Source of the DNA: Cytophagaceae bacterium ABcell3
Lineage (GTDB): Bacteria; Bacteroidota; Bacteroidia; Cytophagales; Cytophagaceae
Assembly: GCA_030913385.1 (NCBI GenBank)
Contig: CP133159.1
Location: 4,629,001-4,693,000, forward strand
Direction of reading: 5' to 3'
DNA length: 64,000 bases
The notes beneath the pieces were generated by a model. It was not told the origin of the DNA and did not search any database. It worked only from the letters and a program-made list of their open reading frames with translations. The position numbers and the translations under genes are program-made. Below, piece after piece: positions 22,475 through 64,000 of this stretch (position 1 is the first letter of the stretch; every line of letters begins with the position of its first letter).

Positions 22475-23805
22475 TAGGACGCAGCTGCAATATTGTTAGA
22501 TGATCTGCCTTTCAAGCGGCCAGATTTCATCATTCCTTCATAATTTCTCATCAACAGATAGCTATCTATTTGCTGAATAGTATCAAGAATAACACTTACC
22601 ATGATAAGCAAGGATGTTCCTCCGTAAAAATACGAAAATTCTCTGGTAATACCAGTTACTGCTGCAATAGCTGGTAATATGGCAACTACCGCAAGGAATA
22701 CAGAACCAGGCAAAGTTATTTTTGATAAAACACTGTCAATAAACTCAGATGTAGCTTTTCCTGGTTTTACACCTGGAACAAATCCCCCATTTCTCTTCAG
22801 GTCATCCGCAATTTGATTTGGATTAACCGTTAGGGCGGTGTAGAAGAAAGTGAACAATATAATCAATATGGCAAACACCACATTATATTGCCACGAAGTA
22901 AAGTCTGCAAATGTAGCTCCGATAGATCCAGCCAAGTCACTAGTGTCTGCCCATATAGAAGCTATCATAGCTGGGAGGAACATAATAGATTGAGCAAATA
23001 TAATTGGCATAACACCTGCTGCAATAACCTTTAAAGGTATATACTGTCTTTGACCACCGTATACTTTATTTCCAACCACCTGCTTTGCATATTGAACAGG
23101 AATCTTTCTTATCGCTTGCGTGAGCATAACAACGCCCATGATAACAAAGAACAAGGCAACCATTTCAATTAAGAAAATGAAAGCACCTGATAGTTCTCTT
23201 GCTAATGCTTCAATTATAATGGCTTGAGGAAATCTAGATATAATACCGATCATAATTAGCATAGAAATACCATTTCCTATCCCTCTGTCAGTAATTTTCT
23301 CTCCCAACCACATGGTGAAAATTGTACCTGAAACAAGCACAATTAACCTGGTAGCGTTCATTAAGACCGTATCACCTCCAGGATATAACATATCTGGTGT
23401 AACAGTAGCAGAAAGATAGCCAATTCCTTGAGCCAAACAGATTGCTACAGTTAGTACCCTGGTAATTTGATTAATTTTTTTTCTACCAGAATCCCCTTCC
23501 TTTTGCATTTTCTGAAATGTAGGAACTGCAAAAGTTAAGAGCTGCATAACAATAGATGCAGATATATATGGCATGATACCTAATCCAAAGACAGAAACAT
23601 TACTAAATGCTCCTCCTAATAAAGTATCAAAGAGACCAAGAATATTATTATCCTGTGCTGCTCCGACTGTATCAGGGTTAACACCGGGTAATACTACAAA
23701 AGACCCGAGACGAAAGATTACCAAATACCCGAGTGTATTCAATATTCTTATTCTCAGATCTTCTATAGAGAAGATATCACGTATGGTCTGAATAAATTTT
23801 TTCAT
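22474..23805 (-). CDS. secY: Protein translocase subunit SecY
   Basis: A 443-residue channel subunit of the Sec translocon in the inner membrane. About ten hydrophobic segments follow IRDIFSIEDLRIRILNTLGY. SecY marks include LGIMPYISASIVMQLL (helix 2), GIGNGISMLIMIGI, VVGNKVYGGQRQYIPLKVIA (ribosome-binding loop) and LLMRNYEGMM at the end. An ATG at 23805 is preferred over a TTG one codon upstream. It is in its normal place after rplO. Confidence 0.97.
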   Translation of the reverse strand: MKKFIQTIRDIFSIEDLRIRILNTLGYLVIFRLGSFVVLPGVNPDTVGAAQDNNILGLFDTLLGGAFSNVSVFGLGIMPYISASIVMQLLTFAVPTFQKMQKEGDSGRKKINQITRVLTVAICLAQGIGYLSATVTPDMLYPGGDTVLMNATRLIVLVSGTIFTMWLGEKITDRGIGNGISMLIMIGIISRFPQAIIIEALARELSGAFIFLIEMVALFFVIMGVVMLTQAIRKIPVQYAKQVVGNKVYGGQRQYIPLKVIAAGVMPIIFAQSIMFLPAMIASIWADTSDLAGSIGATFADFTSWQYNVVFAILIILFTFFYTALTVNPNQIADDLKRNGGFVPGVKPGKATSEFIDSVLSKITLPGSVFLAVVAILPAIAAVTGITREFSYFYGGTSLLIMVSVILDTIQQIDSYLLMRNYEGMMKSGRLKGRSSNNIAAAS

Positions 23806-59802: not shown

Positions 59803-60738
59803 ATGAAGGAACTAATCAGAATCGGAAGCAGGGCAAGCAAATTAGCACTTTGGCAAACCTACTATATTGAAGACCGCTTAAAACAAGCAGGTTTTGCCAC
59901 AGAAATTTTTTCCCTTGAATCAAAAGGCGATAAAGTCCTGCATACATCATTTGCAGAAATTGGCACCAAAGGTTTGTTTACAGAAGAACTAGAAGACAAA
60001 CTTATCAGCGGTGAAATAGATATAGCTGTACATAGTGCCAAAGACATGCAAACTGACCTGGGCAAAGACCTGGAACTAATAGCCTTTACAGAAAGAGAAG
60101 GCTGCCATGATGTACTCCTGAGCCTTGACAAGAACTTTAACATAGACGACTCTTCAGAAAACTGGCTTATCGGGACGTCTTCGACACGTAGAAATGCACT
60201 GCTGAAGTACTATTACCCACATACTAAAACCACCGAAGCAAGAGGAAACCTTCAAACAAGAATGAAAAAGCTTGAAGATGGCAAGTTTCAAGCTATGATA
60301 CTTGCCTATGCAGGTGTACACCGGATGGGAATGGAGTCTTATATCGTCAAGAACTTTGCTACAGATGAGTTTACTCCTGCTGTCGGCCAAGGCTGTATTG
60401 CGGTTGAAGCATCTAAGAACCTAGACCCGCAAAAAAGAGCGGCCATCCGTAATGCAGTAAACCACCAGACCACAGAAATTTGTCTGTTGGCAGAAAGGGC
60501 ATTTTTAAAAAAATTAGAAGGCGGGTGCAGCATACCGGTTTTTGGTTTAGCCACCATCAACAATGACCAACTATCTATCTCCGGTGGAGTTATTAGCCTA
60601 GATGGAAAAGAAATGATCAAAACATCTATGACAGGATCAACAGAACACCCTGAGCAATTGGGTCTTAAACTTGCAGAAGATATCCTAAGCAAGGGAGGAG
60701 GCAAGGTTTTAGAAGAAATAAAACGAGTTAGGTCATAA
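59803..60738 (+). CDS. hemC: Hydroxymethylbilane synthase
   Basis: A 311-residue porphobilinogen deaminase that links four porphobilinogens in heme synthesis. It shows IRIGSRASKLALWQTYYIED, VHSAKDMQT, GTSSTRRNALLKYYYP and the dipyrromethane cofactor cysteine in LEGGCSIPVFGLA. It begins two bases after the rimK stop. No other heme gene is in the window. Confidence 0.97.
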   Translation: MKELIRIGSRASKLALWQTYYIEDRLKQAGFATEIFSLESKGDKVLHTSFAEIGTKGLFTEELEDKLISGEIDIAVHSAKDMQTDLGKDLELIAFTEREGCHDVLLSLDKNFNIDDSSENWLIGTSSTRRNALLKYYYPHTKTTEARGNLQTRMKKLEDGKFQAMILAYAGVHRMGMESYIVKNFATDEFTPAVGQGCIAVEASKNLDPQKRAAIRNAVNHQTTEICLLAERAFLKKLEGGCSIPVFGLATINNDQLSISGGVISLDGKEMIKTSMTGSTEHPEQLGLKLAEDILSKGGGKVLEEIKRVRS

Positions 60739-60739
60739 C

Positions 60740-60771
60740 AAAATGACCAAAAACAGGTTTTTAGTCATTTT
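60740..60771 (+). terminator. Hairpin between hemC and the cyclophilin gene
   Basis: A stem AAAATGAC/GTCATTTT continuing with AAAAAC/GTTTTT, total about 14 bp with two mismatches, but no T-run after it. It is a probable weak terminator or processing site in the run. Confidence 0.55.
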
Positions 60772-60783
60772 GATATTAGCACT

Positions 60784-61410
60784 ATGAAAGCAATGAGGTT
60801 TATATTATTGTTAGTCTTTTCACTTTCAGTATTAACTGAAATACATAGCCAGCCTTGGAGAAAAAAGGAAGAAATCGCCATCATTAAAACTGATTTTGGC
60901 GAAATGCATGTCATCCTTTATGATGAAACACCAGCCCACAAAGAAAACTTTTTAAAACTTTGCAGGGAAGGGTTTTACAACGGTACAACCTTTCATAGGG
61001 TTATCAAAAATTTCATGATTCAAGGAGGAGATCCAAACTCTAAAGATACCATAGCGGGAAATGAAGGCCAAGGGGGACCAGGTTATACCCTACCACTTGA
61101 AACAGATCCCCATATCGTACACGAAAAAGGTTCGCTGGCCGCTGCCAGGTTAGGCGACAATGTAAACCCTGAGAAGAAATCTAATGGTTCTCAGTTTTAT
61201 ATTGTCCATAACCCTAAAAAATGCGTGCACCTCAATGGATCATATACTGTTTTTGGCAAAGTGATCAAGGGAATGGAAGTTGTGGACAGTATTGCCGTAC
61301 AACCTGCATCTATGGCGGGAAAGCCTCACGAAGACATAAAAATGTCAACCGAAACAAAGAAATACTCCTTGAAGAAAATTAAAAAGATATACAACTACGA
61401 AAAACTGTAA
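60784..61410 (+). CDS. Exported cyclophilin-type peptidyl-prolyl isomerase
   Basis: A 208-residue protein with a signal peptide (about 1-23, LLLVFSLSVLTEIHSQ). The cyclophilin domain contains FHRVIKNFMIQGGDPNSKDT with the catalytic Arg, GSLAAARLGDNVNPEKKSNG, SQFYIVH and GSYTVFGKVIKGMEVVDSIA. It speeds cis-trans proline isomerisation of envelope proteins. Cytophagales often carry several such genes. It lies 26 bp upstream of the RmlD-like gene. Confidence 0.93.
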   Translation: MKAMRFILLLVFSLSVLTEIHSQPWRKKEEIAIIKTDFGEMHVILYDETPAHKENFLKLCREGFYNGTTFHRVIKNFMIQGGDPNSKDTIAGNEGQGGPGYTLPLETDPHIVHEKGSLAAARLGDNVNPEKKSNGSQFYIVHNPKKCVHLNGSYTVFGKVIKGMEVVDSIAVQPASMAGKPHEDIKMSTETKKYSLKKIKKIYNYEKL

Positions 61411-61436
61411 TTTTTTATTCTGAAAAAACTTCCGAT

Positions 61437-62348
61437 ATGAAAAAAAGAGTACTTATAACAGGCGCTAATGGCTTACTGGGACAAAAACTAGTACAACTCC
61501 TACTGGAAGACCCTCTCTATGACTTGATAGCAACAGGCAGAGGCGACAACCGCCTTCCTTATAAAGATAAAGGCTATACGTATGTTTCACTTGACATCAC
61601 AGACAATGAGCAAGTAGACGAGATAGTTACCAAACTAAAACCTGAGGTGATTATAAATACCGCTGCCATGACCAATGTGGATCAGTGTGAAGATGACAGA
61701 GAAGCATGCTGGATGCAAAATGTACAGGCCGTACAAAACATGGTAGATGCAGCAGAAAAAAACAAGTGCTTTTTGATACACCTCTCCACTGACTTTATCT
61801 TTGATGGCCAAGAAGGTCCTTATGATGAAGATGCTACGCCAAAACCGCTTAGCTACTATGGAGAAACTAAACTAGGAGCTGAGAAAATAATCAAACAAAG
61901 CAAAATTAAATGGGCGATAGCCAGAACAGTCTTGGTATATGGCATTGCACACGACATGAGCCGGAGCAATATTATCCTATGGGTCAAGAAAAATTTGGAA
62001 GATAAAAAGCCTATTCAGGTAGTCGATGACCAGTTCCGCTCTCCTACCTTAGCAGAAGACCTGGCTATGGGATGCTATTTGCTCATGGAAAATGGCGCTA
62101 CAGGTATTTACAATATTTCCGGGAAAGAGGTTCTCACTCCATACCAGATGGCGATTAAAACTGCGGAGTTCTTTAATTTGGACAAAAGCTTAATTACCAA
62201 AACTGATTCGACAAAATTCAAACAAAGAGCACCGAGACCTTTGAAAACAGGTTTCTTGATTGACAAAGCGATCAACAAACTTGGGTATGATCCAAACTCT
62301 TTTGAAGAAGGCATTAAGCTGATATCGGAGCAGATGGCTAACCGGTAA
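61437..62348 (+). CDS. RmlD-like NAD(P)-dependent sugar nucleotide reductase
   Basis: A 303-residue short-chain dehydrogenase of the RmlD substrate-binding family (PF04321). The nucleotide-binding GANGLLGQKLVQLL is at 8-21. NTAAMTNVDQCED and the catalytic YYGETKLGAEK (YxxxK) follow. RmlD itself makes dTDP-L-rhamnose, but no other rhamnose genes lie here, so dTDP-4-dehydrorhamnose is only a possible substrate. Last gene of the plus-strand run. Confidence 0.88.
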   Translation: MKKRVLITGANGLLGQKLVQLLLEDPLYDLIATGRGDNRLPYKDKGYTYVSLDITDNEQVDEIVTKLKPEVIINTAAMTNVDQCEDDREACWMQNVQAVQNMVDAAEKNKCFLIHLSTDFIFDGQEGPYDEDATPKPLSYYGETKLGAEKIIKQSKIKWAIARTVLVYGIAHDMSRSNIILWVKKNLEDKKPIQVVDDQFRSPTLAEDLAMGCYLLMENGATGIYNISGKEVLTPYQMAIKTAEFFNLDKSLITKTDSTKFKQRAPRPLKTGFLIDKAINKLGYDPNSFEEGIKLISEQMANR

Positions 62349-62360
62349 AACCAAAAACTA

Positions 62361-62450
62361 AGTCGCAAGTGTGCAAGGTATGCACGACCTTACAAAAGAC
62401 GATGTATTAAATACTTCGAACATGAGGTCAAAAATTGTACACTTGTGACT
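62361..62450. repeat. Imperfect inverted-repeat structure downstream of the RmlD-like gene
   Basis: AGTCGCAAGTGTGCAA (62361-62376) pairs with TTGTACACTTGTGACT (62435-62450), 16 bp with two G-T pairs. Inside, GACCT (62386-62390) pairs with AGGTC (62425-62429). The 90-bp unit forms a long stem with an inner hairpin and starts 12 bp after the stop codon. It does not match the AACCTGAA repeat family. From 62451 to about 62760 I see only AT-rich non-coding sequence. Confidence 0.6.
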
Positions 62451-62794
62451 AGCCATAAGAAAGAACCTGTCAAAATTCCCGAAAACTATTGATTACACAG
62501 CAGCCTATCGTTTGCGCTGGAAGTTTTTGCTGCAAACTTCTTATAACGACCCTCAGCACACCCCTAAATTTCAACTTAATTCCCGCAAAACATCAACAAA
62601 AACCCAAGAACAGGGTTAAATAAAAACCACAATAAGAGTTTTTCGACACAAAAACACCAAAACTGCATTAAAAATCAGACTGTTTTTCAGAAAACAAGAA
62701 TATATAAAAACCTTGTAATTACTTATAATACAGAATAAAAGACGCAAAAAAGGTTGAAAATATTCGATATTCTAAAAAAAATATGCCATTTTTG

Positions 62795-63060
62795 CAGAGA
62801 AGTTCGAAAGGAGCTTTTTGTCAAATGAATAAATGGCAAGAATGTATATTTCTCAAGGACAAGGCCGGAAAATGGCATAGTATTTGAGTATTAATATACA
62901 GGTTCAACAAATGAAATTTCCGAAGTTCTGCGAAATCAGAATTGGATAAAAAGTCTTATTGATCAATTATATTCAGGGTTTTAGGTTCCTGTTTAGTTGG
63001 TAAATAGGTTAATAAAATGGTTAATGGGCTCTCCGTCTGGTAAACGGAGGGTTTTTTATT
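62795..63060 (+). ncRNA. Candidate structured non-coding RNA
   Basis: A plus-strand region in the 777-bp gap 62349-63125, ending in a strong terminator. Pairings seen: GCAGA and TTCG near the 5' end with CGAA and TCTGC about 140 bases later; TTTGT with ACAAA; GTATATT with AATATAC (7 bp); CTCAA with TTGAG; GCC with GGC at the tip. CATTTTTG at 62787-62794 resembles a -7 element. The layout (closing stem, large inner loop, apical stem) recalls 6S RNA, but no conserved 6S sequence can be confirmed. A 20-codon frame at 62825 with AAAGGAG upstream is an alternative. Confidence 0.4.
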
Positions 63061-63064
63061 TTCC
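63029..63064 (+). terminator. Strong plus-strand terminator
   Basis: CTCTCCGT (63029-63036) pairs with ACGGAGGG (63044-63051), seven-base loop, then TTTTTTATTTT. It is about 680 bp past the last plus-strand gene, which implies a separate transcript ends here. Confidence 0.88.
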
Positions 63065-63071
63065 CTCCTTT

Positions 63072-63098
63072 AAAAAAGATTCCCATCTGGTAATCTTC
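63072..63098 (-). terminator. Minus-strand terminator of the hypothetical gene
   Basis: On the minus strand AAGATT pairs with AATCTT, ten-base loop, followed by a run of six T. It lies 28 bp after the stop of the gene at 63126. Confidence 0.7.
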
Positions 63099-63125
63099 AA
63101 AAATCCATCAAATAAGAGTTATCAG

Positions 63126-63776
63126 CTATACTAATAAATGCTTTTTAACATCTTCTAAAAAAATTGTATATTCATTTAAAACATCACTGAGTTTCACACT
63201 ATAAAATTTAGGTTCATTTTTGGTGTTATTATAGATTAGTGATAATGCAAAGACTACAGGAAATTCCGATCCACGATGTAAATGAGTTTCAGAGTTGATG
63301 AACGAATGTTTATATGCATTCGAAATCTCATTTAATAAGTTTAATAACTTGAAATGACGTTTGCGCAACTCTGGCAAAAAATGTTCATATTTAATAAAAT
63401 TTCCTATCGATTCAATTTTAATTCTACCTGGATAAGTTTGATTTTTTTTATGATAATCTAATATGTAAAGCATAGAAATTAATTCGTCACCGGTTCTCCT
63501 AAGCCAATAAATAATCTGCTCAGTCAAGAATTTTTGTTTGTAATATTTATGAGTCAATTTGATGGCAACATTAACGTCGTAATCTTCACGATTATTTATA
63601 ATTTCAAAATCTTCATAAAGCGTAATTATCAAATCATTTACGTTATCAAATCTTTGTTGTATTTCTTCCCAACTCAAGATTAAGTTTCCATAAGGAGTAT
63701 TGCTTGGCAGATTCGGTATGTCATTATCATTTAAAAAAGCATAATGTTTTTTCAAAACTTCAATAATTGGATACAT
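63126..63776 (-). CDS. Hypothetical protein, helical, unrecognised family
   Basis: A 216-residue cytoplasmic protein with no signal peptide and no Cys. It is largely helical and ends in a C-terminal segment with VVFALSLIYNNTKNEPKFYS. A helix with LLNLLNEISNAYKHSFINSE recalls the tail of some HEPN-like or growth-control proteins, but the HEPN RxxxxH core is not clearly present, so I make no claim. The AT-rich composition and position between a candidate RNA and a mobile intron suggest accessory DNA. ATG at 63776; its own terminator follows. Confidence 0.65.
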   Translation of the reverse strand: MYPIIEVLKKHYAFLNDNDIPNLPSNTPYGNLILSWEEIQQRFDNVNDLIITLYEDFEIINNREDYDVNVAIKLTHKYYKQKFLTEQIIYWLRRTGDELISMLYILDYHKKNQTYPGRIKIESIGNFIKYEHFLPELRKRHFKLLNLLNEISNAYKHSFINSETHLHRGSEFPVVFALSLIYNNTKNEPKFYSVKLSDVLNEYTIFLEDVKKHLLV

Positions 63777-63819
63777 GGATTTAACGGTTTTATACGAAAT
63801 CTTGGACGCATTACAGCTA

Positions 63820-64000
63820 ATAGTAGACGGCCGTGAGAGTATCTCCCACGGTGCACCCCTGCCTTTGCCGGCAGGCAGGTCTCACACCACTGTATCCCGA
63901 TAGCTATCGGGAGATCTCGTATACAGCGGTTCGTCAAGTAATATAGAAACTTTTTCGTAATATTCCTGCAAAGATTCGTACCCTTTCCTCTTTAACCTTT
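63820..64000 (-). mobile_element. 3' end of a probable group II intron (domains V-VI)
   Basis: On the minus strand ACCGCTGTAT (63921-63930) pairs with ATACAGTGGT (63886-63895), followed by GTGAGACC, resembling the base of domain V with the usual GGTGTGAGA after it. A second stem CCGTGGGAG/CTCTCACGG (63831-63851) followed by CCGTCTACTATT resembles domain VI and the 3' splice end. Two GC palindromes sit in the loops: TCCCGATAGCTATCGGGA (63895-63912) and CCTGCC/GGCAGG (63858-63875). The rest of the intron would lie right of the window. Exact boundaries are uncertain. Confidence 0.5.
63882..64000 (-). CDS. Group II intron maturase/reverse transcriptase, C-terminal fragment
   Basis: A reading frame enters from the right edge (first full codon ends at 63998) and stops at TGA 63882-63884. 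It reads RLKRKGYESLQEYYEKVSIL then LDEPLYTR. Group II intron proteins often end with a (R/K)LxxxGYxSxxxYYEK helix followed by an EPPYT-like stretch that overlaps domain V, which is what is seen. Only about 38 codons are inside the window, so reverse transcriptase motifs cannot be checked. Confidence 0.5.
   Translation of the reverse strand, partial: RLKRKGYESLQEYYEKVSILLDEPLYTRSPDSYRDTVV

Follow-up and report, generated by a model that had tools for sequence, protein, structure and literature searches.

The stretch at 62797-63061 on the plus strand of the window, a 64,000-nucleotide (nt) piece of the genome of Cytophagaceae bacterium ABcell3 (contig CP133159.1; here genome G000), very probably encodes a trans-acting small RNA (sRNA) that base-pairs with mRNAs and blocks the translation of nitrogen-uptake proteins without Hfq. 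This reading builds on features seen directly in the genomes: a conserved and syntenic locus, an intrinsic terminator, complementarity far above chance, the antisense placement of matches at start codons, and a seed that differs between genera jointly with its sites. The working part would be the extended antisense seed immediately before the terminator, for which pairing of some 18-40 nt is predicted with the leaders of amtB (after glnK), of a second ammonium transporter gene, of a BBP2 beta-barrel porin gene and of nrtB (after nrtA), and perhaps also with that of a PAS histidine kinase gene. The 3′ end of the candidate gene, given by its terminator, is firm, while its 5′ end is conjectural, and a shorter transcript that begins anywhere upstream of the seed would do as well.

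The seed, TTCCTGTTTAGTTGGTAAATAGGTTAATAAAATGGTT, occupies 62986-63022 (+) and is complementary to the amtB leader at G000:C1:4578974-4579010, outside the window and about 113 kb from the sRNA locus, which is thus encoded away from its target. Searched against its own genome, the seed has this single strong second match, on the opposite strand (BLAST, 86% over 37 nt, E 6.8e-6); the next match has an E of 0.29. The site is situated in the gap between glnK and amtB, encoding PII and the ammonium transporter, and ends 3 nt before the amtB ATG, with a further weak partial seed match (E 6.6) directly upstream in the same leader. The core of the predicted duplex consists of 33 pairs with one mismatch (−43.0), and inclusion of an outer helix brings it to −47.7 kcal/mol, against a background mean of −16.0 (sd 3.5) and minimum of −32.9 for this seed over 5107 stretches of 75 nt from both strands of the window. 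The lowest background energies, at 23050/23075 (+) and 42025 (−), fall antisense to or inside long coding frames, which we take to be secY- and rpoB-like, and were put down to chance. No porin match for the seed was found in this genome, and the leader of its second ammonium transporter pairs poorly (−15.7). In ABcell3 itself, one target, amtB, is well supported by the predicted pairing.

The target set widens in the relatives. The G001 seed was searched against G001, G002, G007, G012 and G016, and the G011 seed against G005, G011, G015 and G018. Together with the G000 search, this produced 24 non-self BLAST matches at E ≤ 0.1, distributed over nine of the 10 sRNA-bearing genomes and absent from G002. 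Twenty-two of them lie antisense beside or across a start codon. In 18 the match stops 0-11 nt short of the codon, and in four, all at the second ammonium transporter, it extends over the codon. The 24 matches share ancestry and so count as six kinds of target gene versus two exceptions. Matches precede amtB in G000, G001, G007 and G012, and the BBP2 porin gene in G001, G007, G012, G016, G005, G011, G015 and G018 (PF07642 was tested on the G012 protein). They also lie at the second ammonium transporter gene in G005, G011, G015 and G018, before the nitrate permease gene nrtB in G005, G011 and G015, before a PAS histidine kinase gene, read from a GTG start, in G005 and G015, and before a gene for an outer-membrane-like protein in G018. 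The proteins of the target regions belong to Pfam families AMT (PF00909), PII (PF00543) and porin (PF07642), and the nitrate permease and ATPase of G011 pass the NCBIfam cut-offs TIGR01183 and TIGR01184. The position of one match (L100) and of the second-transporter sites was settled from the porin and transporter ATG. Two more leaders, those of the G002 porin (−34.9) and the G016 amtB (−37.1), were reached via protein searches.

The two exceptions differ in kind. One match (L105) lies inside a gene that is presumably CTP-synthase-like. The other (L108 in G001; L181, G001:C7:194096-194173) is a second copy of the seed, TTCGTATTAAGTTGATAAAAGGGTC, placed before a terminator of its own directly behind another gene, possibly a second, 3′UTR-borne sRNA. 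Separately, the leaders of further ammonium transporters in G007 and G012 (L047, L048, L058 and L059) contain ACCCTTT blocks matching only the 3′ end of the seed, with duplexes of −24.3 to −26.5; these are perhaps weaker targets.

The predicted energies mostly stand well apart from chance. Paired with the sRNA of the same genome, amtB leaders reach −47.7 (G000), −41.4 (G001), −39.5 (G012), −34.9 (G007) and −37.1 (G016), porin leaders −34.9 to −45.7, the second transporter −27.7 and nrtB −23.9 to −25.4. For 24 of 29 leaders, none of 200 dinucleotide shuffles was as low; as-low shuffles numbered 26 for amtB of G002, 20 for G015, 6 for G018 and 4 for G005, and 3 for the outer-membrane protein leader of G018 (each of 200). 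As a negative control, six leaders from family members lacking a strong sRNA match were set against the best of 10 sRNAs, and five stayed within shuffle range. The exception, an ammonium transporter leader of G013 (L041), reached −27.0 versus a shuffle minimum of −20.8. This leader holds AAATTATTTACTAACT, the exact complement of part of the g6 seed. The searches detected no sRNA in G013, which may carry a diverged one that they missed.

Seed and sites differ jointly between genus groups. The seeds fall into four groups (G000; G002; G001 with g8; g6), and the joint difference can be read from seed AATAGGTTAATAAAATGGTT with amtB site AACCATTTTATTAACCTAATT in G000, seed AATAAGTTGATAAAAGGG with porin site CCCCTTTTATCAACTTATT in G012, and seed AATTTAGTAAAGGTTAAT with second-transporter site ATTAACCTTTACTAAATT in g6. 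When sRNAs were exchanged between groups, 16 of 21 targets paired best with the sRNA of their own seed group: the G000 amtB leader fell from −47.7 to −29.7 with the next best sRNA, and the second transporter from −27.7 to between −17.9 and −19.5 with the best foreign ones. The five that paired better with a foreign sRNA are the amtB leaders of G002 and of the four g6 members. Margins are finer elsewhere: within the G001-g8 group, targets often pair slightly better with the sRNA of a neighbour than with their own, and g6 porin leaders prefer their own sRNA over that of G001 by only 1.2-4.5 kcal/mol. Among mismatches, 16 keep G-U pairing versus eight that do not, as counted in 14 chosen, non-independent pairs of 23.

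The locus itself is a property of the family. The sRNA region was searched in 59 genomes, the own one included, a pattern search covered the 19 genomes of the family, and a covariance model of seven sequences was run on 291 genomes of the order. Strong model matches (59.9-94.9 bits) occur in 10 of the 19 family genomes (G000, G001, G002, G005, G007, G011, G012, G015, G016 and G018); these scores are partly by construction, seven of the 10 sequences having been built into the model, and the loci had been found earlier by BLAST and pattern. Another family genome, G006, gave only a weak match (36.4 bits), and the remaining eight gave none. In all 10 loci an RmlD-type gene lies upstream on the same strand (tblastn), its match about 205 to 634 nt from the RNA model match, and in four a sodium:alanine symporter gene (PF01235) lies downstream. 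What is kept is the roughly 37-nt segment just before the terminator (62986-63022) and not the fold; over the 59 genomes, the 5′ two thirds of the region has short scattered matches only. The terminator stem differs between genera yet stays largely paired: across the seven sequences 82.9% of its cells are paired, a value reached by none of 500 shuffles and set against 40-65% for slid versions, with the structure derived from the same alignment that tested the pairing. Both sides have changed in six of 10 stem pairs, a count that 37 of 500 shuffles also reach.

Beyond the family, nothing convincing emerged. The order search gave a match at E ≤ 0.05 in 64 of 291 genomes and a class search one at E ≤ 0.001 in 18 of 395 genomes (own included), and the best model score outside the family was 41.1 bits, versus 59.9-94.9 inside. 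Filtering was strict in both searches, and no more than the best 11-15 first-look candidates of each genome went on to scoring, so diverged homologues may have escaped. Inspection of 15 loci from the order search (14 outside the family) and nine from the class search revealed mostly terminators with little likeness to the seed. L078 and L074, read together with their genes, are terminators directly behind coding genes and were rejected as homologues; by eye, the weak R1 matches that suggested extra sRNA copies in G011 and G018 likewise resemble terminators behind genes. In a distant family of the class, L190 (G479) shows a seed-like stretch, GATAAATAATTTTATAAAAGGGTC, at 36.5 bits with no clear terminator, probably by chance. 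A contig scan with the rmlD protein returned two loci, where the RNA model finds nothing up to E 5.

The seed is followed by an intrinsic terminator at 63026-63061 (+), with an 11-pair stem, a 7-nt loop and a T-rich tail. An earlier note on this DNA had placed a plus-strand terminator about 680 bp past the nearest plus-strand gene, and the distance measures 678 nt from the stop of that gene, which spans 61437-62348 (+) and encodes an RmlD-type sugar reductase (PF04321). The minus-strand terminator that the note saw directly afterwards is likewise present, as a terminator-like hairpin followed by T6 at about 63068-63097 (−), folding at −7.3 kcal/mol; it is absent from the output of a perfect-stem terminator scan. 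The hairpin would serve the facing gene at 63126-63776 (−), whose 216-aa product has no Pfam match. Terminator-like sites as such are not above chance here, with three in 60000-64000 versus a shuffle mean of 2.6. The terminator and an RNA gene ending there nonetheless look real from the sequence, and we infer that the gene is transcribed, either from its own promoter or by cleavage from the rmlD 3′UTR.

The same note had offered a choice between a 6S-type RNA of this phylum and a new RNA. The latter half stands, given a locus with its own terminator, kept in sequence and synteny in 10 of the 19 family genomes and without an Rfam family: neither the sRNA region nor 13 related loci match any Rfam 15 family at gathering score. 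The 6S half finds no support. No 6S, 6S-Flavo (RF01685) or Bacteroidales-1 match exists in the window at gathering scores (Rfam 15), nor in 62350-63130 up to E 10, where the output is seven sub-threshold snoRNA, miRNA and enterobacterial models, the best at E 0.48. An RNA polymerase-binding 6S-type RNA is highly improbable at this place, and the family was rejected on the Rfam searches of window, genomes and 13 loci. In its favour, the position of a 6S RNA is vacant: 6S-Flavo surpassed its cut-off in none of the 10 sRNA-bearing genomes, some with 150 first-look candidates scored, the one sub-threshold match being in G015 (24.9 bits), so that the presence of a 6S RNA elsewhere cannot be used to argue against one here; control genomes are likewise without a match above cut-off. 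The region also folds above chance, with 62797-63057 (261 nt) at −65.1 versus −50.2 for shuffles (sd 4.5; z −3.34; 0 of 200 as low), an energy to which the terminator contributes. However, the long-range, 6S-like layout claimed earlier did not materialize: the predicted fold strings together local hairpins and the terminator and does not form one long rod with a central bubble, the 5′ two thirds lack counterparts beyond short matches, and the conserved segment is the antisense seed. In the G000 RNA, prediction places much of that seed in base pairs, with 63014-63019 open.

The other alternatives concern how the RNA arises and what the shared sequence is for. A variant compatible with the preferred reading, possible though the less probable route, has the RNA released by cleavage from the 3′ end of the rmlD mRNA as a 3′UTR-derived sRNA with the same pairing function. 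The constant same-strand position of rmlD upstream speaks for it, as does a simple scan in which no plus-strand terminator-like site appears between 62348 and 62974; directly 3′ of rmlD, in 62360-62450, an imperfect inverted repeat, GTCGCAAGTGT ... ACACTTGTGAC, was seen by eye and is perhaps the true 3′ end of that mRNA. Promoter evidence is mixed. Against the consensus TAnnTTTG, as quoted in the part of PMC9723704 covered here, the window offers a possible −7 box, CATTTTTG (62787-62794, +), a weak candidate with one mismatch and no TTG at the usual distance, and boxes with a TTG 17-22 nt upstream are lacking in G000, which again favours cleavage, and also in G002 and G015. Such boxes with an upstream TTG do occur at varying places in G001, G007, G012, G016, G005, G011 and G018. 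The variable rmlD-RNA spacing counts against cleavage, and so, weakly, do the one-mismatch boxes with a TTG that occur in G001, G007 and G012, 65-68 nt ahead of the extracted seed. By eye, no sigma-54 promoter was seen.

Alternatively, the shared sequence might be a DNA or RNA site at which a regulatory protein binds terminator and leaders without any sRNA pairing. Motif and sites would then likewise differ together between genera, and the G-U bias is only 16 to 8. This explanation is nevertheless improbable: 22 of 24 matches are the reverse complement beside a start codon, two of these settings lying within an operon (glnK-amtB and nrtA-nrtB), 30-40 nt is long for a protein site, and the partner copy adjoins a kept terminator. 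Still less credible is a leader, attenuator or small-peptide mRNA belonging to a downstream gene. The symporter gene downstream in four loci would suit it, and in G012 the symporter frame can be read through the seed; in the other six loci no symporter was found within about 1500 nt downstream, the next gene in the window faces the other way, and the corresponding frame in G007 meets a stop after the seed, by eye. A 20-codon frame does exist at 62825, as the tail of a 34-codon frame (62783-62887). The idea that the seed is itself protein-coding, in an LVNKLIKGL-like frame, was dropped because several relatives, inspected by eye, have stops around the seed that end this frame.

The preferred reading, a trans-acting sRNA, suggests a simple mode of action. 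Most of the predicted duplexes fall in the stretch from about −45 to the start codon, and some extend slightly into the gene; a block of ribosome loading or translation is therefore the likeliest effect. The duplex may in addition make the mRNA a substrate for RNase III, which would cut the double strand. Uptake would presumably be lowered when nitrogen is plentiful. In two cases, glnK-amtB and nrtA-nrtB, the sites are inside operons just before the transporter cistron, and upstream cistrons such as glnK and nrtA would be spared. All this would proceed without Hfq (PF17209), which was found in none of the 10 sRNA-bearing genomes and in five of 14 control genomes, including those of E. coli and B. 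subtilis.

The closest known parallel is GibS of Bacteroides thetaiotaomicron, presented in 2020, in the sections covered here, as the first trans-encoded noncoding RNA of the Bacteroidetes with identified targets (PMC7366714). Like the candidate, GibS is a trans-encoded sRNA of the Bacteroidota with a conserved seed directed at translation initiation regions and no obvious Hfq; Bacteroides are described there as without obvious Hfq and ProQ, and GibS pairs nonetheless. A further likeness is that GibS acts on the second gene of one dicistron and leaves the first unaffected (PMC7366714). By description the two are set apart: the GibS seed is in an unstructured 5′ part and its targets are metabolic and sugar-related, whereas here the seed precedes the terminator, is predicted to be partly base-paired within the RNA, would form longer duplexes with its targets and is directed at nitrogen uptake. 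Another Bacteroidota sRNA, Rfp18 of Flavobacterium psychrophilum, resembles the candidate in having one pairing region and several functionally related predicted targets, which in its case are proteases, and is said to fold strongly (PMC9723704, in part). 6S-Flavo shares the phylum and differs in architecture, beside its missing match in the window and in the 10 genomes.

Nitrogen metabolism links the candidate to RNAs of unrelated organisms. In the portion of the account used here, sRNA154 of Methanosarcina mazei is raised under nitrogen limitation and masks the ribosome binding site of glnA2 (PMC11456600); NsiR4 and the glutamine synthetase 3′UTR sRNA of Enterobacteriaceae likewise act in nitrogen metabolism. 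An amtB, nrtB or porin target was not seen for any of the three in the source sections consulted, and those of a review of nitrogen-related noncoding RNAs make no mention of amtB, ammonium transporter or Bacteroid- (PMC9170634). A distant parallel is the Hfq peak in the amtB 5′UTR of Pseudomonas stutzeri (PMC11332353, in part). No description of this RNA was found in titles and abstract openings, mostly from outside subscription journals, on nitrogen, amtB and the sRNAs of Bacteroidetes, Cytophaga and Sporocytophaga.

If true, the finding would be a new RNA switch governing nitrogen feeding, in a group of bacteria where targets are known for few such RNAs, with a coherent target set (ammonium, nitrate and porin) readable from the sequence alone, and would bear on how trans-encoded RNAs of the Bacteroidetes pair without Hfq. 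On balance, we lean toward a broader proposal: a single Hfq-free sRNA would coordinate nitrogen uptake in the family via unusually long duplexes (up to about 40 nt) that have changed in step with their sites, silencing chosen cistrons (amtB, nrtB) together with an outer-membrane porin, such that sensing and binding would be separated from transport.
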